A stretch of DNA of 64,000 nt from Rhodovulum bhavnagarense (GTDB taxonomy: Bacteria > Pseudomonadota > Alphaproteobacteria > Rhodobacterales > Rhodobacteraceae): the NCBI RefSeq assembly GCF_004343505.1, contig NZ_SLXU01000001.1, positions 620,001-684,000 of the forward strand. The letters run 5' to 3'. A program made the translations under genes and the position numbers. The notes beneath the pieces are model-generated. The model had not been told where the DNA came from. It did not search any database and saw nothing but the letters and a program-made list of their open reading frames with translations. Positions 55,097 to 64,000 of this stretch are shown here, piece after piece (within the stretch, counting starts at the first letter, position 1; each line of letters opens with the position of its first letter).

Positions 55097-55663
55097 ATGC
55101 TTGAGATCGAAGAGACGGGCTTGCCCGGCGTGGTGGTGCTGACGCCCCGGCGGTTCGGGGATCGTCGCGGTTTTTTTTCCGAGACGTGGAATGCGCGGCG
55201 GATGGCCGAACACGGGCTTGATTACCTTTTTGTGCAGGATAACCAGTCGCTGTCGGCCGAGATCGGCACGGTTCGAGGTCTGCATTTCCAGGCCCCGCCG
55301 CATGCGCAGGACAAGCTGGTGCGCTGCGGGCGCGGGGCGCTGTTCGACGTGGCCGTCGACATCCGCGTGGGCTCTGCGACCTATGGGCAGTGGGTGGGGG
55401 TGGACCTGACTGCGGAAAACGGCAAGCAACTGCTGGTGCCCAAGGGGTTCCTGCATGGTTTTGTCACCCGCGCGCCCGATACCGAGATCGTCTATAAATG
55501 CACCGATTACTACGCACCCGAATGCGACGGCGCGGTGCGTTGGGACGATCCCGATCTTGGCATTGACTGGGGGATTTCGGCGGCGTCGGCGATCCTGTCG
55601 GACAAGGATGCCGCCGCCCCGCGTTTGCGCGATATCACGTCGCCGTTCCGCTACGAGGAGTAA
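55097..55663 (+). CDS. rfbC: dTDP-4-dehydrorhamnose 3,5-epimerase
   Basis: Cupin-fold epimerase of 188 residues, third step of dTDP-L-rhamnose synthesis. [14 protein letters not shown] near the N-terminus, the catalytic His in [18 protein letters not shown], and FLHGFV and [12 protein letters not shown] are present. ATG 55097 has GAGAGG six bases upstream. First gene of a four-gene operon. Confidence 0.96.
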
Positions 55664-55667
55664 GCGC

Positions 55668-56717
55668 ATGAAGATACTGGTCACCGGTGGCGCGGGGTTC
55701 ATCGGTTCGGCGGTGGTGCGCCGGGCGATTGCCGATGGGCACGAGGTGGTCAACCTCGACGCGCTGACCTATGCCGCCTGCCTGGCCAACGTGGCCTGCG
55801 TGGCCGATGGCGCGGCCTACGCCTTTGAACAGGCCGATATTCGCGACCGCGCGGCGCTGGACAGGGTTTTCGCCGTGCATGCGCCGGACGCCGTCATGCA
55901 CCTGGCCGCCGAGTCCCATGTCGACCGCTCCATCGACGGGCCGGGCGATTTCATCGAGACCAACATCACCGGCACCTACAACATGCTGGAGGCCGCGCGC
56001 AGCTATTGGGTGGGGCAGGGGCGGCCCGCAAGCTTCCGCTTCCACCATATCTCCACCGACGAGGTCTATGGCTCTCTGCCCGCCGACCCGTCGGTGAAAT
56101 TCACCGAAACCACGCCCTACGATCCGCGCAGTCCCTATTCGGCCTCCAAGGCGGCGAGCGACCACCTGGTGCGCGCCTGGCATGAAACCTACGGCCTGCC
56201 GGTGGTGCTGACCAATTGTTCCAACAATTACGGCCCCTACCATTTCCCCGAAAAGCTGATCCCGGTGATCATCCTGAACGCGCTGGCGGGCAAGCCGCTG
56301 CCGATCTACGGCGACGGGTCGAACGTGCGCGACTGGCTTTATGTCGAGGATCACGCCGAGGCGCTGCTGCTGGTGGTGGAAAAGGGCACGGTGGGCCGGT
56401 CCTACAATATCGGGGGCGAGAACGAGCGGACCAACCTGGACCTGGTGCGGACCCTGTGTGGCATCCTCGACCGGTTGCGCCCGCGCGCGGCGGGCTCTTA
56501 CGGCGATCTGATCACCTTCGTCACCGACCGGCCCGGCCATGACGCGCGCTATGCCATCGACCCCACCCGCATCCGGACCGAACTGGGCTGGCGGCCCAGC
56601 GTGACGGTCGAAGAGGGGCTTGAGCGCACCGTGCGCTGGTATCTCGACAACGAGGCCTGGTGGCGTCCGTTGCAGGCGCGCCACGGTGTTGGTGAACGCC
56701 TGGGGGTGAAGGCATGA
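55668..56717 (+). CDS. rfbB: dTDP-glucose 4,6-dehydratase
   Basis: Short-chain dehydrogenase-fold enzyme of 349 residues, second step of dTDP-L-rhamnose synthesis. NAD-binding [13 protein letters not shown], the substrate-site [24 protein letters not shown] and the catalytic [10 protein letters not shown] are intact. It starts four bases after rfbC and overlaps rfbD by four bases. Confidence 0.96.
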
Positions 56718-57571
56718 CGCTTCTGGTGTTCGGATCGACGGGGCAGGTTGCCCGCGAATTGCGCAAACGCGCCCCCGACGCGGTGTTCCTGTCGCGGGAA
56801 GAGGCGGATCTGGCCGATCCCGGCGCCTGCGCCGCGGTGATCGAGGCCCATGCGCCCGCAGCCGTGATCAACGCCGCCGCCTATACCGCGGTAGACCGGG
56901 CCGAAGAGGAAGAGGCGCTGGCCACCACCATCAACGGTGCAGCGCCCGGCGCCATGGCCTGGATCTGCGCCAAACAGGGCATCCCCTTCGTTCACATCTC
57001 GACCGATTACGTGTTCGACGGCTCGGGGGACGCGCCCTGGGCGACGGATGCGAAAACCGCGCCGCTGGGGGCCTATGGCCGCTCCAAGCTGGCCGGGGAA
57101 GAGGCGGTGCAAAGCGCGGGCGGGGCCTATGTCATCCTGCGCACGTCCTGGGTGTTTTCCGCCCATGGCAGCAATTTCGTCAAGACCATGCTGCGGCTGG
57201 GGGGCGAGCGGGAAAAGCTGACCATCGTCGCCGACCAGGTCGGCGGGCCGACCCCGGCGGGCGACATCGCAGCGGCCTGCCTCAAGATCGCGCACCATCT
57301 GCAAGAGACACCCGAACATCGCGGCACCTTCCATTTTTCCGGTGCGCCCGATGTCAGCTGGGCCGATTTCGCGCGCGAGATCTTCGCGCAGGCGGGGCTG
57401 GACGTGACGGTGGAGGACATCCCCACCAGCGCCTATCCCACCCCCGCCAGGCGCCCCGCCAATTCCCGGCTGGATTGCGAGGGGACAGAGGTCGTTTTCG
57501 AGATTGCCCGCCCGGACTGGCGCGCGGGATTGCGCGATATTCTGAAAGATCTGGGAGCATTGAAGACATGA
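56714..57571 (+). CDS. rfbD: dTDP-4-dehydrorhamnose reductase
   Basis: NAD(P)H-dependent reductase of 285 residues, last step to dTDP-L-rhamnose. [12 protein letters not shown] binds the cofactor; [23 protein letters not shown] and the catalytic [12 protein letters not shown] are conserved. Overlaps both neighbours by ATGA. Confidence 0.96.
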
Positions 57572-58443
57572 TCACCCGCAAGGGCATCATCCTGGCCGGC
57601 GGCTCGGGCACGCGGCTTTACCCGATCACGATGGGCGTCAGCAAGCAGCTCCTGCCGATCTATGACAAGCCGATGATCTATTATCCGCTCAGCGTGTTGA
57701 TGCTGGCCGGTATCCGCGAGATCGCCGTGATCACCACGCCGCAGGACCAGGACCAGTTCAGGCGCGTGCTGGGCGATGGCAGCCAGTGGGGCCTGAGCCT
57801 GACCTACATCGTGCAGCCCTCGCCCGACGGGCTGGCGCAGGCCTTCATCCTCGCCGAGGACTTTCTGGCGGGCGCGCCTTCGGCGCTGGTGCTGGGCGAC
57901 AACATCTTCTACGGGCACGGCCTGCCCGAGCTGTTGCAGGCGGCCGATGCCAAGACGGCGGGCGGCACGGTGTTCGGCTATCGCGTGGCCGATCCCGAAC
58001 GCTATGGCGTGGTCGAGTTCGACGCGGGGGGGCGCGCGACGGCGATCGTGGAAAAGCCCGAGGTTCCGCCGTCGAATTACGCGGTGACGGGGCTTTACTT
58101 TCTCGATGCCGAGGCGCCGGCCCGCGCGCGCCAGGTCCGGCCCTCGGCGCGCGGCGAGCTGGAGATCACCACGCTGCTGGAAATGTACCTGCACGAGGGC
58201 GCGCTGGACGTGCAGGTGATGGGGCGGGGCTATGCATGGCTTGACACGGGCACGCATGGTTCTCTGCTGGATGCGGGCAATTTCGTGCGCACGCTGGAAA
58301 AACGCCAGGGCCAGCAGACCGGCTGCCTTGAGGAAATCGCCTATGCCCAGGGCTGGATCGACACCGCCACCCTGATCGCCCGTGCCGAGATGTTCCGAAA
58401 GAACGCATATGGCGATTATCTCAAGGGGTTGATCAAGCCCTAG
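57568..58443 (+). CDS. rfbA: Glucose-1-phosphate thymidylyltransferase
   Basis: Nucleotidyltransferase of 291 residues, first step of dTDP-L-rhamnose synthesis and its usual feedback point. [27 protein letters not shown] and the sugar-binding [17 protein letters not shown] are present. Last gene of the rfbCBDA order. The product would feed a rhamnose-containing surface glycan; no glycosyltransferase gene is inside this window. Confidence 0.96.
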
Positions 58444-58868: not shown

Positions 58869-59102
58869 ATGAAAAAGATCACCGCCATGACCGCGATCCT
58901 TTTGTTTTCAACCGGCGCCGCCTTTGCCGCAGAGCTGGATGCCAATGGCGATGGTGCGGTAACTTTCGAAGAGTTTCTGGCTGTCTTGCCGACAACCACC
59001 GAAGAGGCGTTCGCGGCAATCGATACCGATGCTAGCGGCGCCCTGTCGGCAGAGGAAATCGCGGCGGCCGAAGAGGCCGGGTTGATCCCCGTCGAGGGCT
59101 GA
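58869..59102 (+). CDS. Small secreted EF-hand protein
   Basis: Protein of 77 residues with a signal peptide (MKKITAMTAILLFSTGAAFA) and two calcium-binding loops in the mature part: DANGDGAVTFEE and DTDASGALSAEE, both with the normal 1-3-5-12 acidic pattern. It probably binds Ca2+ in the periplasm or outside. GGGAGAC precedes the ATG. Gene stands alone between the rhamnose operon and the TPR-sulfotransferase operon. Function beyond calcium binding unknown. Confidence 0.85.
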   Translation: MKKITAMTAILLFSTGAAFAAELDANGDGAVTFEEFLAVLPTTTEEAFAAIDTDASGALSAEEIAAAEEAGLIPVEG

Positions 59103-59373: not shown

Positions 59374-60441
59374 GTGTCCCGGGACGCCCTAACAGATGAC
59401 GGCATGTCGACGATCCGCCAGCGTTTGGGCGAGATCCGCGAGATGGAACGATCCAAGGGCGCCGAGGCCGCGGAAAAGGCGCTGATCGCGCTGATCCGCG
59501 AGGTGCCCGACAACCGGCCCGCCTATACCGCGCTGAGCCGGGTGCTGATGAAGCAGAAAAAATTCGATTACGCCGTCCGGGCCGCCGAAAAGGTGGTGCG
59601 GCTTGCCCCAATGGAGGCCGAGCCGCTGGTGCTGGCGGGCTTTGCGCGGTTGCGCAACGAGGATCGCGAGGGCGCGGCAGTGGCCTTTGCCGATGCACTG
59701 GGGCTGGATGGCGCAAATACCCGCGCCATGATGGGCGCGGCCCTTTTGAAGATGTCGGAAGACAGCCACGAGGATGCGCTTGAGCTATGCGAACGCGCCG
59801 TCGCGCTTGATCCCGACCTGGAACGCGCGCATGAACTGATTGTGCGTATCAACCTCAAACAGGGGCGCAAGGACGACGCGCTGGCCGAATTGCGCGACCT
59901 CGTCGAGGCCGGTGGCGGTTCGTCCCGTGCGTTGCGTCTTTACGCCCGCCTGATGCGCGATGAGGGGCGACTTGACGAGGCGTTGAAGGCCGCCGCGTCG
60001 CGGCTCGGAGAGGACCGCAAGAGCCTCAAGCGTTTTTCCCAGCTTGCGGCCTTTTCCGGTCAGGCTGACCTTGCGGTGGACGAGTATCGCAAACTTGCCG
60101 AGGCAACCGATGCGAAACCCGCCGACAAGGTTCGCCTTATCGCTGCGCTGATCCGCAGCGGTGCGCTTGATGAGGCCCGCACTGGCATTTCCGCGCTGCC
60201 CGATGCGCGGGTTCTCAAGCCGCTCAAGCACAAGCTGTCGGGCGACATCGCGATGGCCGAAGGTCAGCACACGGCCGCGATCGCGCTTTACCGCAAGGCC
60301 TGCAAGGCGGCCAACGCACAAGAGCCCGATGCCGACGCGATTGGCGCCGACGCACCTGAGGAAGATCTGGCAAAGCTCTGGCAGAAACATAGTGCCCAGG
60401 CTCTGCGTGTTGCCTTGCGCGCCCGCCGCAGTCCGGGCTGA
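59374..60441 (+). CDS. Tetratricopeptide repeat protein
   Basis: Protein of 355 residues made almost wholly of TPR-like helical hairpins (for example KALIALIREVPDNRPAYTAL, AVRAAEKVVRLAPMEAEPLV, LELCERAVALDPDLERAHEL, IALYRKACKAANAQEPDA). No signal peptide or membrane segment, so cytosolic; likely a binding scaffold. The GTG at 59374 is preceded by AAGAGGTG (59363-59370), the best ribosome binding site here; GTG 59353 and ATG 59404 are alternatives. It is 52 bases before a run of overlapping genes that includes a sulfotransferase, and TPR domains are often linked to sulfotransferases. Confidence 0.75.
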   Translation: MSRDALTDDGMSTIRQRLGEIREMERSKGAEAAEKALIALIREVPDNRPAYTALSRVLMKQKKFDYAVRAAEKVVRLAPMEAEPLVLAGFARLRNEDREGAAVAFADALGLDGANTRAMMGAALLKMSEDSHEDALELCERAVALDPDLERAHELIVRINLKQGRKDDALAELRDLVEAGGGSSRALRLYARLMRDEGRLDEALKAAASRLGEDRKSLKRFSQLAAFSGQADLAVDEYRKLAEATDAKPADKVRLIAALIRSGALDEARTGISALPDARVLKPLKHKLSGDIAMAEGQHTAAIALYRKACKAANAQEPDADAIGADAPEEDLAKLWQKHSAQALRVALRARRSPG

Positions 60442-60493
60442 CCTCTGGGCCCACCCGCGCAGGCAACGTTCAACAGACAGCGAAAGGCCCGAG

Positions 60494-61324
60494 ATGCCCC
60501 TGAACCTTGTCTATATCATCATGGATAGCTGCCGGTTCGACAGCTACCGGCGTGCGCGGACGCCCAACATGGACGCCCTGGCCGAGGGTGAACAGCGCTA
60601 TAGCTATGCGTCCTGGACCGCGCCCAGCCATCACTCGATCTTCATGGGCCAGATCGCCCATAAAAGCCCCACACGGGTTCTGGCCTCGGAGGTCTACAAG
60701 AAGGAATATGCCCGTTGGGTTGACCGGATCGACGTGCCGGACCTGTCGTTCAAATCCTTCGTGCCCGAACTGAGCCTCGCGAAGGTTTTGCAAAAACAGG
60801 GTTACCGAACCGTGGGCCGGGTATCGATGCCTGTCTTGAACCCTTTTACCGGGCTCAATCGTCACTTCGACGATTATCGCCTGATGTCGAATCACAATGA
60901 TTTCGGCGGAATGGTGAACGAGGTATCGTTTTCGACCGATCAGCCGAGCTATTATTTCATGAATCTCGGCGAGACCCATTATCCTTACATGCTCAAGGAT
61001 GACAGCCTGCCGCGCATTTCGGGCGTTCACGGGGTGGTCAAGGGCATGGATGAGGCGATCCAGCGGTCGGGCGATCTGCCGGATGAGGACGATGGCTTTT
61101 TCTCTGCCGGGGACATGGCCGCGCTGCACGACCAACAGGTGCGCTGTGTGGAACATGTCGACGAGATCCTGGGCGCGTTGATCGCCAAGGCGCCGAAGGG
61201 GACGCATTTCATCGTGACCGCGGATCACGGTGAATGTTTTGGCGAGGGCGACTATTTCGGGCACGGCCCGGTGATGCACGAAAAGGTTTTCGAGATTCCG
61301 TTCCTTGAGGGGCGCAAGACATGA
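60494..61324 (+). CDS. Short alkaline-phosphatase/sulfatase superfamily hydrolase with altered active-site motif
   Basis: Protein of 276 residues, much shorter than normal sulfatases (450-550). The first metal Asp lies in LVYIIMDSCRFDSY (Asp11), TPNMDALAEG follows, and late metal ligands are in TADHGECFGEGDYFGHG. At the place of the sulfatase C/S-x-P-S-R signature the sequence is T42-A-P-S-H46, so the formylglycine-forming Cys/Ser and the Arg are both replaced. A Thr nucleophile like that of other superfamily members is possible. No signal peptide. GAAAGG lies before ATG 60494; the stop overlaps the sulfotransferase start. Confidence 0.75.
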   Translation: MPLNLVYIIMDSCRFDSYRRARTPNMDALAEGEQRYSYASWTAPSHHSIFMGQIAHKSPTRVLASEVYKKEYARWVDRIDVPDLSFKSFVPELSLAKVLQKQGYRTVGRVSMPVLNPFTGLNRHFDDYRLMSNHNDFGGMVNEVSFSTDQPSYYFMNLGETHYPYMLKDDSLPRISGVHGVVKGMDEAIQRSGDLPDEDDGFFSAGDMAALHDQQVRCVEHVDEILGALIAKAPKGTHFIVTADHGECFGEGDYFGHGPVMHEKVFEIPFLEGRKT

Positions 61325-62259
61325 TGGACGCGCCTTCGGTTCCCGACCCGGTTTTCGTGCTGGCCGCGCCGCGGTCTTTCACATCGCTGATCACCGCGAT
61401 GATCGGCCAGCACCCAGAACTTTACGGCCTGCCGGAGCTTAACCTCTTTCAATGTGATCTGATGGAGGAATTCAATACCGGGCTGACGCCCGATGGCATT
61501 TCCAAATCGCCTGTCTGGAAGACGATGCGCCATGGGTTGTTGCGGACCGTGGCCGAGCTATATGCCGGCGAACAGACGGTCGAGTCGATCCACATGGCCG
61601 AACGCTGGCTTGCGCGCCGGGCCGACCGGACCTCGGCAGAGGTCTTCCATGAACTGTGCAAGTCCATTGCGCCTTTGCGCGTGGTTGAGAAAAGCCCGGG
61701 TGTGCTGCGCAAGCAGGTGTTCATGGACCGGATGCTTGAGGCATTTCCGAATGCCCGCTTCATCCACCTGTTGCGCAGTCCCGTGGACCAGGGGCGATCG
61801 GTGCTCAAGGCCAAGGGTGGTATCGGCGTGCTCTTGGCGATGAACTGCGTTGACTACCGCGGAGAAGAGGCCGCGCTCGAACCGCAGATCCTGTGGCATG
61901 ACACCCAGGTTCAGATCCTTCGCTTTCTCGACAAGCTGCCCGATGAGCAATTCGTAACGGTGCGTGGCGAGGATCTGCTGAACGATCTCGATAACTCGCT
62001 GGGGGCACTATGCCGCTGGCTGGGCGTGTCCGACGATGTCGAGGCCATCGCCGCGATGAAACGGCCCGAGGAGTCGGCCTATTCCTGCCTTGGGCCCGCG
62101 AATGCGCGGCTGGGCAATGACGTGAATTTCCTGCGATCGCCGGCGCTGCGCGAGGGCGGGGTGACGTCAACCCCGCTGGATGCGCCCTTGCCCTGGCGGG
62201 CGGATGCGGCGCCGCTACATCCTCGTGTCCAGGCCCTGGCGCGGGAGTTGGGATATTGA
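61321..62259 (+). CDS. Sulfotransferase family protein
   Basis: Cytosolic protein of 312 residues of the PAPS-dependent sulfotransferase family. The 5'-phosphosulfate loop is AAPRSFTSLITAMIGQHPEL near residue 15, and the 3'-phosphate-binding region is FIHLLRSPVDQGRSVLKAKG near 147. The acidic/aromatic DYRGEEAALEPQILWHD and VRGEDLLNDLDN fit the C-terminal part. ATG 61321 overlaps the previous stop; the stop overlaps the next start (TTGA). It would transfer sulfate to a hydroxyl or amine of an unknown acceptor, perhaps a glycan. Confidence 0.85.
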   Translation: MMDAPSVPDPVFVLAAPRSFTSLITAMIGQHPELYGLPELNLFQCDLMEEFNTGLTPDGISKSPVWKTMRHGLLRTVAELYAGEQTVESIHMAERWLARRADRTSAEVFHELCKSIAPLRVVEKSPGVLRKQVFMDRMLEAFPNARFIHLLRSPVDQGRSVLKAKGGIGVLLAMNCVDYRGEEAALEPQILWHDTQVQILRFLDKLPDEQFVTVRGEDLLNDLDNSLGALCRWLGVSDDVEAIAAMKRPEESAYSCLGPANARLGNDVNFLRSPALREGGVTSTPLDAPLPWRADAAPLHPRVQALARELGY

Positions 62260-62597
62260 GTGTTCTTGACCTCAAACCGTTGCGCGCGCCCGGCCACCGG
62301 GCCTTTATCGGGATGGAATTTGGCGGCCCTTCTGCCGAGGCAGATCCGGAGGCGCTGAGCCCTGGCGATGTGCTGGCCGATCCGCGCCTGATGTCGCTGG
62401 GCCGGGCCGTGTTCGAAGAGCTGCGCCTGCAATTTGCAGAACCCGCCGGCGCCGCGCATCTGAGCGACGAGGAAGAGGCATATCGGCAGAAGCTGGAAAC
62501 CTGGGCCGATATCCTGGAAATCCTGCTGGAAGAGACCCTTAACGAGCTTGAAACCCTGAATGCCGCGCGCGCGGGGCTTGCGCATGGGCCGGGTTGA
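62256..62597 (+). CDS. Unknown 113-residue helical protein
   Basis: Frame of 113 codons beginning at TTG 62256, which overlaps the sulfotransferase stop as TTGA and has GCGGGAG eight bases upstream. The first 45 residues are Gly/Pro-rich; from about residue 48 the sequence is helical and acidic (DEEEAYRQKLETWADILEIL) and could form a short coiled coil. No signal peptide, membrane segment or recognisable domain. Its packing in the operon suggests a partner of the neighbours. Confidence 0.6.
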   Translation: MSVLDLKPLRAPGHRAFIGMEFGGPSAEADPEALSPGDVLADPRLMSLGRAVFEELRLQFAEPAGAAHLSDEEEAYRQKLETWADILEILLEETLNELETLNAARAGLAHGPG

Positions 62598-62607
62598 GGG
62601 GGCAGGC

Positions 62608-64000
62608 ATGAAGCAGATGCGGTGCGCGGCGGCCCATCCCGGCCTTGGCGAGCGGGCTTTTGTCCGCATCGCCCGTAACGGATTCGGTGATGCGCTGAAT
62701 TCCTACCCCCATTCCATGGCCTGGTTCAAGGACCGCCTGGTGGTCGGCACAACGCGCAGCAACCTGTGCCTGTTCAAGGTCTCGAAGATCGAGAAGAAGC
62801 TGGACCGATGGCCGGTCGAATGTCCTGATTACGTTTACGACCTGGATATGCGGGCGCAGATCTGGTCGTTCGATCCGACCGAGGCTCGGCCGGGGGTGGA
62901 AAACTCCGGCTGGACGTTGCGCGCTCGCGCGCCCTGGATCGACGCGCAGGGTGAGAGGCTCCCGCGTGAATTGGGCTATCGCGGCATGTGTGTTTTCAAA
63001 GGGACCAGCGATCGGGAAGAATGCCTTTACGTCGCCACCTATACGCCGGCCAGGGGATTCGGCACGCGCATCCTGCGATCTGAGGATGGCATACGGTTCG
63101 ACGAGATCCCGATGCCAGAGGGGTTCGACCGGTCGGTCATCACGCTGCGCCTTGTTGTACCGTTCAAGGGGCGGCTGTTTACCAGCCCTACGGGCAAGGC
63201 GGGTGGTAATCCCAACCAGACCGGACAGGCGGTCATCTATGCCAGCGCCGATCCGGCCGGGGGATCGTGGGAGCCGGTGAACCTGCCCGGTTTCGGCGAT
63301 CCCGGTAATATCGGCATCTTCGAGATGGTTGGTTGCGGAGATTACCTTTACGCGGGCACCGGCAATCCGGCCGGCTACCAGATATGGCGCACCCGCGCCG
63401 AGGGGCCTGCGCCTTACGACTGGGATTGCGTGGTTACCAACGGGGCCTATCGCGGCCCGCTGAACCAGGGTGTCGCCTCTTTCGCGGTGCACCAGGGATT
63501 GGTCTATGCTGGCAGCGGTATTCAACATGGCGGCATTGATCGGGGGGCTGGAATCGGCCCTGCCGGGCCGGAACTGATCCGCATCCATGAAAACGGCCGG
63601 TGGGACCTGGTCGTGGGCAGTAGTCGCGATACACCCGAGGGCGCGCGCGCGCCGCTGTCGGGCTATACGCCGGGGTTCAACAACCTCTTCAACGGATATT
63701 TCTGGCAGATGGAAAGCCATGATGGCTGGCTTTACCTGGGCACCTTCGACTGGACCACGATGCTGCGCTATTCCGAGCGCGGAGCCTGGCCCGCGCCGTT
63801 TCGCAAGATGATCGAGCGGGTCGGTGTCGAAAAACTGGTGCAAACCCGGGGCGGTGCCGAGCTTTATCGTTCGCGCGATGGCGAGAATTGGCTGCCGGTC
63901 ACGACACAGGGCTTTGGGAACGCATTCAATTACGGTATCCGTACATTGCAGTCCACGCCATACGGTCTGGCGGTGGGCTTGGTGAACCCCTTTGGTCCGC
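62608..64000 (+). CDS. Seven-bladed beta-propeller-like protein, 3' end outside window
   Basis: Open frame of at least 464 codons from ATG 62608 (GAGGGGG upstream) to the window edge with no stop. No signal peptide. Seven recurrent blade segments of the form hydrophobic-x-x-x-G-x-L-Y-x-G-T are seen near residues 37 (FKDRLVVGTT), 127 (EECLYVATYT), 183 (FKGRLFTSPTG), 239 (GDYLYAGTGNP), 292 (QGLVYAGSG), 367 (DGWLYLGTFD) and 446 (PYGLAVGLVNP). Between them are Asp-box/BNR-like strands (ILRSEDG, IWRTRAEG, LYRSRDGENW). This suggests a glycan- or protein-binding propeller. Family not named; last member of the operon within view. Confidence 0.75.
   Translation, partial: MKQMRCAAAHPGLGERAFVRIARNGFGDALNSYPHSMAWFKDRLVVGTTRSNLCLFKVSKIEKKLDRWPVECPDYVYDLDMRAQIWSFDPTEARPGVENSGWTLRARAPWIDAQGERLPRELGYRGMCVFKGTSDREECLYVATYTPARGFGTRILRSEDGIRFDEIPMPEGFDRSVITLRLVVPFKGRLFTSPTGKAGGNPNQTGQAVIYASADPAGGSWEPVNLPGFGDPGNIGIFEMVGCGDYLYAGTGNPAGYQIWRTRAEGPAPYDWDCVVTNGAYRGPLNQGVASFAVHQGLVYAGSGIQHGGIDRGAGIGPAGPELIRIHENGRWDLVVGSSRDTPEGARAPLSGYTPGFNNLFNGYFWQMESHDGWLYLGTFDWTTMLRYSERGAWPAPFRKMIERVGVEKLVQTRGGAELYRSRDGENWLPVTTQGFGNAFNYGIRTLQSTPYGLAVGLVNPFGP

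Follow-up and report, generated by a model that had tools for sequence, protein, structure and literature searches.

A catalogue published in 2011 covers Pfa- and Hgl-type synthases whose products are unknown (PMC3098273). In section 5 of that source, the minimum for a secondary lipid synthase cluster is at least one KS, ACP and KR domain, and the tandem ACPs typical of PfaA are not demanded in that account. A related PKS is found in the heterocyst glycolipid (hgl) and hgl-like islands, and the products of the hgl-like and basal islands are given as unknown where a 2025 source treats them (PMC11804610). In the olefin synthase pathway, a FAAL occurs together with ACP, ST and TE domains, as set out in the relevant part of PMC3903477. 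No description of the set reported below, which combines propellers, sulfotransferases and enzymes of the phosphatase superfamily, was found in the literature searched, including the parts of PMC3098273, PMC11804610, PMC3903477 and PMC4558948 that deal with these systems.

The gene cluster at and beyond the window end

The window, by which we mean the whole stretch of 64,000 nucleotides of Rhodovulum bhavnagarense DNA that was analysed, ends in five genes that an earlier note had described as a compact operon. ORF calls place all five on the + strand, and the Pfam matches of the second and third, with the residue changes given below for the second, bear out their description as an altered sulfatase-like hydrolase and a sulfotransferase-family protein:

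59374..60441, +, TPR-repeat protein, 355 aa, operon gene 1; GTG start; Pfam TPR_19 E 3.8e-15
60494..61324, +, sulfatase-like (alkaline-phosphatase superfamily) hydrolase, 276 aa; Sulfatase PF00884 E 1.8e-11
61321..62259, +, sulfotransferase ST1, 312 aa; Sulfotransfer_3 PF13469 E 9.7e-24
62256..62597, +, 113-aa protein, no family assigned; TTG start
62608..64000 (ATG 62608), on to window-equivalent 64101, +, beta-propeller PROP1 (L002:7608-9101)

Three of the four junctions are as tight as had been claimed, namely an ATGA overlap between the sulfatase-like gene and ST1, a TTGA overlap between ST1 and the 113-aa gene, and a 10-base gap before PROP1; the TPR and sulfatase-like genes are 52 bases apart in the ORF calls. 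Scans for promoters and terminators returned 1 site (1.7 expected) and 8 (7.3 expected), respectively. PROP1 runs off the window end, so that the operon is truncated at 64000, and the locus continues, as had been anticipated, with same-strand genes and then a PKS block. The following coordinates are window-equivalent:

64098-65072, +, lipoprotein-type esterase
65125-66033, +, sulfotransferase ST2
about 66065-66937, +, sulfotransferase ST3
66927-68123, +, second propeller PROP2
68130-70532, - (convergent), HlyD-like exporter subunit
70581-71204, 206-aa protein
71285-79318, PKS1
79231 (or 79315)-83121, PKS2
83221-83496, free-standing ACP
83524-85128, phosphodiesterase (PDE)
85159-86070, alpha/beta hydrolase (ABH)

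The five genes are thus the left arm of a longer cluster of ~27 kb and not a self-contained glycan operon. Pfam scans found no outer-membrane channel family among the cluster proteins of this genome. The base composition of the operon (GC 0.637) and the PKS block (0.651) gives no sign of recent transfer when set against window positions 1-58500 (0.632). In a genome of the same genus (G280), the cluster flanks lie on different contigs, hence there is no clean empty site. A phage or defence origin was considered and rejected after 0 matches for 3 proteins in PHROGs and for 5 in PADLOC.

The polyketide synthases and their carrier protein

PKS1 has two NMO/FabK-type enoyl-reductase-like stretches followed by KS-AT-ACP-KR and a DH-like domain, and PKS2 has the layout KS-AT-phosphopantetheinyl transferase; the catalytic motifs of both are present. 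PKS1 narrowly passes the PfaA subfamily model TIGR02813 (1014.5 against a cut-off of 1010.1 bits), and its DH match falls below the cut-off (21.2 against 27 bits). It has a single PP-binding stretch and no tandem ACPs. The KS, ACP and KR domains named as the minimum for a Pfa-type cluster in PMC3098273 are all present. A free-standing ACP follows PKS2 (PF00550, 23.4 against a cut-off of 20.8 bits), and its Ser is invariant in 8/8 aligned sequences. By its domains, the pair is predicted to be a PfaA/Hgl-like iterative synthase, a class that is already known.

The cluster resembles the secondary lipid synthases of Types A-T, perhaps Type O most closely, as they are described in the corresponding part of PMC3098273, in its iterative KS-AT-ACP-KR, FabK-type ER, PPTase and patchy distribution. 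It differs from them in the single ACP of PKS1, the ER-like part fused at the N terminus of that protein, and the presence of a separate ACP gene, sulfotransferases, propellers and phosphatase-superfamily enzymes. The Fischerella and Westiellopsis genomes of three related loci (L033, L047 and L050) set it off from the hgl systems: their best PKS2 copies score 845-874 bits at 44-45% identity, whereas no other PKS match in these genomes exceeds 468 bits. A likeness to the hgl islands is the weak, sub-threshold match of the HlyD-type protein to DevB-family models; in contrast to those islands, no glycosyltransferase family came up when the 16 proteins encoded by the cluster in this genome were scanned with Pfam.

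Putative tailoring proteins

The sulfotransferases match PF13469 with 85.3 (ST1), 83.9 (ST2) and 71.3 bits (ST3) against a gathering score of 27. Judged by sequence, the nearest solved relatives of ST1-ST3 are the polyketide sulfotransferases of CurM and olefin synthase; for ST1 these are distant (CurM ST 4gbm, E 3.8e-14; olefin-synthase ST 4gox, E 6.1e-10). In 6 of the 43 ACP-bearing loci, a CurM-like ST is fused to the sole ACP found, and the one fusion compared with solved structures, that of L034, matches the CurM ST at E 4e-59. An ACP-ST fusion is present in Neptuniibacter. The related ST beside an ACP is a likeness to the olefin synthase and CurM systems; here, by contrast, there are multiple stand-alone STs and an exporter subunit, and no FAAL/AMP-ligase family was seen in Pfam scans of the 16 proteins. 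Because ST1 is only 23% identical to the ACP-fused ST and ST1-3 fall outside the ACP-fused branch of the tree (the ST1 branch comprises 34 rows), the fusions bear only indirectly on ST1-3. APS kinase was found in 5/5 genomes, one of them without the cluster, and also in 11/14 controls.

Formylglycine (type I) sulfatases carry a Cys or Ser nucleophile precursor in the motif C/S-x-P-x-R. The protein encoded here resembles S1 sulfatases and the alkaline phosphatase superfamily (PF00884, PF01663) in family match and conserved residues, but has Thr42 at the formylglycine position and His46 in place of the Arg of CxPxR. Both residues are found in 19/19 rows (its own and 18 relatives), and identity as a formylglycine sulfatase was rejected on this ground. 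D11, D244, H245 and H257 are likewise invariant in the 19 rows, with conserved residues at the positions expected for the metal site. The Thr-type 'sulfatase' is probably a phospho-hydrolase or -transferase. Its structure model reached a pLDDT of only 72.0 and was not used as evidence.

PROP1 has no Pfam match, no solved-structure match by sequence and no signal peptide by eye. The propeller assignment of the earlier note is upheld by a structure model (pLDDT 93.3) built for a relative in L014 with 74% identity, which fold comparison matches to propeller folds. The best Foldseek match is the hetero-Diels-Alderase 7x36 (TM 0.38/0.52), and the search gave no informative single relative; arylsulfotransferase propellers are absent among the matches listed, which proves nothing.

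The 113-aa protein has no match in Pfam, NCBIfam, PHROGs or PADLOC. Homology to small proteins that occupy comparable positions elsewhere is only weakly indicated, with an hhalign probability of 22% and E 0.00095 for one family (F25) and a probability of 0.4% for another (F22).

Conservation and distribution

A second genome (G074) has all 16 genes in an identical order, the outcome of a gene-order check that the earlier note had proposed, and the five-gene grouping is therefore not due to chance. Among 292 genomes of the order, searches for the propeller (E≤1e-3), PKS2 (E≤1e-150) and the 'sulfatase' (E≤1e-20) picked out one and the same set of 4, in which the matches lie within about 26 kb, and PKS2 (E≤1e-80) was present in 13/13 further propeller genomes. 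Eighty propeller loci were kept from named genomes, with 52 further relatives outside this set, and in 78 of the 80 the propeller is accompanied by one or more further components of the cluster; a control search for component homologues among 431 ORFs of window positions 1-58500 gave 0 matches. Gene order shuffles between loci, yet the set recurs. Antisense ORFs confounded a Louvain clustering of the whole ORF set, which served only for choosing families to annotate. Carriers include Proteobacteria, Cyanobacteria, Nitrospira, Desulfobulbaceae and other groups, with some cultured strains among them, such as Tritonibacter multivorans CECT 7557 and Celeribacter litoreus.

Individual components are more unevenly spread. 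An ST was found in 44/80 loci (29 of the 48 loci of at least 21 kb), 'sulfatase' homologues at ≥100 bits in 20/80 and TPR homologues at ≥100 bits in 7/80, counts that are blurred by contig ends; sulfonation as done here may therefore not be core. Homologues of the 113-aa protein reach at least 20 bits in 6/80 loci.

A proposed pathway and its alternatives

Our preferred reading, to which we assign a probability of about 0.6, makes the operon the tailoring arm of a 'secondary lipid' cluster with a putative sulfonated long-chain product, in which the sulfate is either kept or used as a leaving group. Starting from the observed gene content, catalytic motifs, conserved association and ACP-ST fusions, we infer a substrate, an order of steps, a sulfated product and roles for the propellers, PDE, 'sulfatase', exporter and esterase. 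PKS1 and PKS2 would assemble malonyl units into a long chain, reduced for the most part, which then passes to the free-standing ACP. The sulfotransferases ST1, ST2 and ST3 would move sulfate from PAPS onto hydroxyls of the ACP-bound or just-released chain, which the alpha/beta hydrolase would free. PDE and the Thr-type 'sulfatase' may add or trim phospho-type groups, and the propellers may bind the acyl intermediate, or act on it, in the cytosol. Export of the resulting amphiphile would fall to the HlyD-type adaptor, and the lipoprotein-type esterase may process it in the periplasm. Counting against this reading are the distance of ST1-3 from the ACP-fused STs, the uneven occurrence of ST, 'sulfatase' and TPR among the loci, the sub-threshold DH match of PKS1 and the lack of an outer-membrane channel family in the Pfam scans of this genome's cluster proteins.

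The earlier note had proposed that the operon may sulfate or edit a surface glycan or small molecule and read it through the propeller; that this is a rhamnose-rich surface glycan sensed by the propeller we now find very hard to credit. Pfam confirms rmlC, rmlB, rmlD and rmlA, together with an EF-hand protein, directly upstream of the operon, as had been stated; homologues lie upstream in the same order in L016, and at E≤1e-40 rmlA has no match other than the one in this genome. Against this, L016 is the only one of 80 related loci with rml homologues (some loci have little upstream sequence), no rmlA match was found in G014 although it carries the cluster, and in G074 rmlA is on a different contig from the cluster. 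dTDP-rhamnose is not a general part of the cluster. The nearness of the STs to polyketide sulfotransferases, the neighbouring lipid-type PKS and ACP, and the lack of a glycosyltransferase family in the Pfam scans all argue further against a glycan substrate, and the propeller, in which no signal peptide was seen by eye, gives no sign of reading one. We regard it as highly improbable that the PKS block and the operon from TPR to PROP2 serve separate functions and are neighbours by chance or shared transfer. The convergent HlyD gene between the blocks would fit such an arrangement, as would the many clusters that show PKS-ACP-PDE-ABH-PROP with no ST, 'sulfatase' or TPR in view, but the joint occurrence of propeller, PKS2 and 'sulfatase' in the same four genomes, of PKS2 in all 13 further propeller genomes, and of the set despite its shuffled order argues against it.

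Two further alternatives lie closer to our preferred reading. In the logic of the olefin synthase, for which the mechanism is given in the relevant part of PMC3903477, an ST would sulfonate a beta-hydroxyacyl-ACP as activation, and a hydrolase would bring about decarboxylation and sulfate loss, yielding a terminal alkene or a desaturation and a product without sulfate. The affinity of the STs to those of CurM and olefin synthase and the six ACP-ST fusion loci agree with such chemistry. So does L064, where an ABH-like gene directly follows PKS2 and ACP-ST, as in the olefin synthase domain order ACP-ST-TE. However, three STs, an exporter subunit and two phosphatase-superfamily enzymes exceed the needs of alkene formation, ST1 has diverged from the ACP-fused type, and the best 60 of 228 solved-structure matches of the ABH are generic alpha/beta hydrolases; on balance, we think this route unlikely. 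It is possible, if doubtful, that the cluster is an instance of the Type O secondary lipid synthase of Shulse and Allen and nothing more. The members of that type named in PMC3098273 are two marine Alphaproteobacteria and Gloeobacter, and the hglEA homologue of Aphanocapsa lilacina HA4352-LM1, an organism that carries the cluster (L061), is placed with that of Gloeobacter in the part of PMC11804610 concerned. D. shibae, G. violaceus and P. bermudensis contribute none of the 80 kept loci. The tailoring set would be unreported there even if this were true, the words 'sulfotransferase' and 'propeller' occurring 0 times in the main text of PMC3098273.

Extending our preferred reading of a tailored secondary lipid, we tentatively suggest that the cluster may represent a cross-phylum sulfonated secondary lipid system in which an iterative lipid-type PKS passes its chain to a dedicated ACP and STs act on the chain there or after its release. 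The cytosolic propeller would be a new and obligate enzyme or chaperone of acyl tailoring, restricted to this PKS clade. In the cluster, one clade of Pfa/Hgl-type synthases is accompanied across phyla by sulfotransferases, an ACP of its own and a conserved propeller, and the cultured strains among its carriers make a direct chemical test of the product possible.

Gene layout across the end of the window

The five genes of the earlier note lie on the forward strand, with tight junctions, at window 59374-64000, and its expectation that the operon goes on past 64000 was borne out: the contig on which the window stands (G000:C1:620001-684000 in the R. bhavnagarense genome) reaches 739700, and reading further along it revealed more genes of the cluster. 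From the TPR gene to the alpha/beta hydrolase (ABH) gene there are 16 genes in ~27 kb.

The first propeller gene ends at window-equivalent 64101 and overlaps that of a PHB-depolymerase-like esterase, which scores 149.8 bits against NF050058, marginally below the cut-off of 150, and has a lipoprotein-like N terminus (LGAC, read by eye). Two more Sulfotransfer_3 proteins follow, and then a second propeller, shorter than the first and matching its family with an hhalign probability of 98%. After this, a HlyD-type adaptor is encoded on the opposite strand. Back on the forward strand are, in order, a 206-aa protein, the synthase pair PKS1 and PKS2, an ACP (91 aa; PF00550 at 23.4 bits, cut-off 20.8), a type I phosphodiesterase (PDE) and the ABH. 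The downstream border consists of housekeeping genes (RsmB-type methyltransferase, recA and alaS).

Features of the R. bhavnagarense locus (L002) and a related locus (L034)
L002:13133-15532, - strand: HlyD-type adaptor with an N-terminal membrane domain resembling intramembrane metalloproteases, model score below cut-off; HExxH absent here and in 45 of 45 long homologues
L002:15581-16201, + strand: 206-aa protein gene, directly before PKS1; homologues scoring ≥40 bits in 5 of the 80 loci
L034:17892-19223 (Neptuniibacter): ACP fused to a CurM-like sulfotransferase (ST), CurM ST match 4e-59

Conservation and distribution

Three of the cluster proteins were searched for in 292 genomes of the order: the propeller at E≤1e-3, PKS2 at E≤1e-150 and the sulfatase-like protein at E≤1e-20. 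Each was found in four genomes, identical in every case, where the three span at most ~26 kb by coordinates. These are not four independent events, because two of the carriers belong to one genus. None of the three was found in G280, the one listed genome from the genus of R. bhavnagarense itself. Gene order, which the original observation proposed to check, is conserved in another carrier: G074 has all 16 genes in identical order, its hydrolase gene being cut at the edge of the stretch compared.

Relatives were sought further afield in one genome per species, with a profile built from five propellers. At least 132 were found, a lower bound because the scan was pattern-prefiltered, and the best 80 of the 132 were kept for locus comparison.

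Loci with each component above its score threshold (best 80 loci; 48 loci ≥21 kb)
PDE: 51; 36
HlyD: 47; 37
ABH: 46; 31
ST: 44; 29
PKS: 43; 31
ACP: 43; 33
PHB-type esterase: 25; 18
Sulfatase-like: 20; 12
TPR: 7; 5

Only L054 and L056 of the 80 lack PKS, PDE, ABH, HlyD and ST alike above threshold, and identical queries against 431 ORFs of window 1-58500 as a control returned no matches. PKS was below threshold in 37 loci; the genomes of 13 were searched, and all contain PKS2 (best match ≥753 bits), at most ~14 kb from the locus in 10 by coordinates, contig identity being assumed, and away from it in L056, L083 and L086. The locus titles, many of them from MAGs whose binning is taken as given, include Alpha-, Beta- and Gammaproteobacteria, Cyanobacteria, Nitrospira, Desulfobulbaceae, Brocadia, Verrucomicrobia, Myxococcota and Thermoanaerobaculales.

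Some related clusters carry additional genes. An outer membrane efflux (OEP) protein lies at L052:17466-18983, its ORF family spanning seven loci (one member scanned); none was found in the R. bhavnagarense cluster. A TauD-family dioxygenase is found at L079:13869-14903, with its ORF family in nine related loci (one member scanned).

Rhamnose genes and sulfate donor

The proximity of dTDP-rhamnose genes had suggested a link to a surface glycan, which was not supported; the cluster does not require them. Identified by Pfam, rmlCBDA lies upstream in R. bhavnagarense, and homologues in matching order precede only one of the 80 loci (L016), upstream sequence being short in several. In a survey of five genomes, R. 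bhavnagarense has a single rmlA, adjoining the cluster; in G074 it is on a different contig, in G149 ~33 kb from the sulfatase-like gene, and at E≤1e-40 there is no match in G280, without the cluster, or in G014, which has it. Rhamnose may be a local addition. G280 has no match to rmlA (window 55097-58443 region) and lacks the cluster, so that both may have arrived together; GC content, compared for the operon and PKS only, does not set the cluster apart. The operon is separated from the rml genes by the gene of an EF-hand protein (window 58869-59102), which has no homologue among ORFs ≥70 aa of the 80 loci.

PAPS could plausibly be supplied, since all five genomes compared have APS kinase. 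The enzyme does not discriminate, because G280 and 11 of 14 control genomes also have it.

Synthases, sulfotransferases and the likely product

In PKS1, two NMO/FabK-like stretches are followed by KS, AT, ACP and KR and lastly by a DH-like domain, which scores 21.2 bits against a cut-off of 27; PKS2 comprises KS, AT and a phosphopantetheinyl transferase. The expected catalytic motifs are there, that of DH included. Against solved structures, a profile of the three STs and two relatives found the CurM ST (4gbm, 1.8e-30) and olefin-synthase ST (4gox, 2.6e-30) at the top, as did ST1 alone (3.8e-14 and 6.1e-10, respectively). The free-standing ACP family has one member per locus in 43 of 80 loci, and in six of these (L034, L036, L040, L058, L063 and L064) that member is fused to an ST, tying the ACP to sulfonation in the cluster. 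ST1 is only 23% identical to the fused ST of L034. When 72 STs were placed in a midpoint-rooted tree, the fused proteins formed their own branch, and ST1 fell in a 34-row branch (support 100/99) with STs of Cyanobacteria, Nitrospira and Desulfobulbaceae loci.

In olefin synthase, as described in the relevant passages of PMC3903477, a beta-hydroxyacyl chain is sulfonated before TE-driven hydrolysis and decarboxylation. Sulfate could similarly be a leaving group here instead of being retained; we consider this variant, the main chemical rival to a sulfonated lipid, unlikely. Whether the cluster is the Type O secondary lipid synthase is a matter of naming, compatible with either chemistry; we regard the identity as somewhat doubtful. 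The passages of PMC3098273 on Type O name Gloeobacter and a pair of marine Alphaproteobacteria as its carriers and give no product for it, and a term search of the main text found neither sulfotransferase nor propeller. Passages of PMC11804610 suggest that hgl-like islands may yield products other than heterocyte glycolipids and group the hglEA homologue of Aphanocapsa lilacina HA4352-LM1, the source of L061, with that of Gloeobacter. The gene set is not described in the text passages of PMC4558948.

The chemistry of the synthases, ACP and STs is assigned from their protein families; chain length, sulfation site and head group are presumptive, and so is what the propellers and the phosphatase-superfamily enzymes do. 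The reading we favour, with a probability of roughly 0.6, is that the cluster makes a sulfonated secondary lipid.
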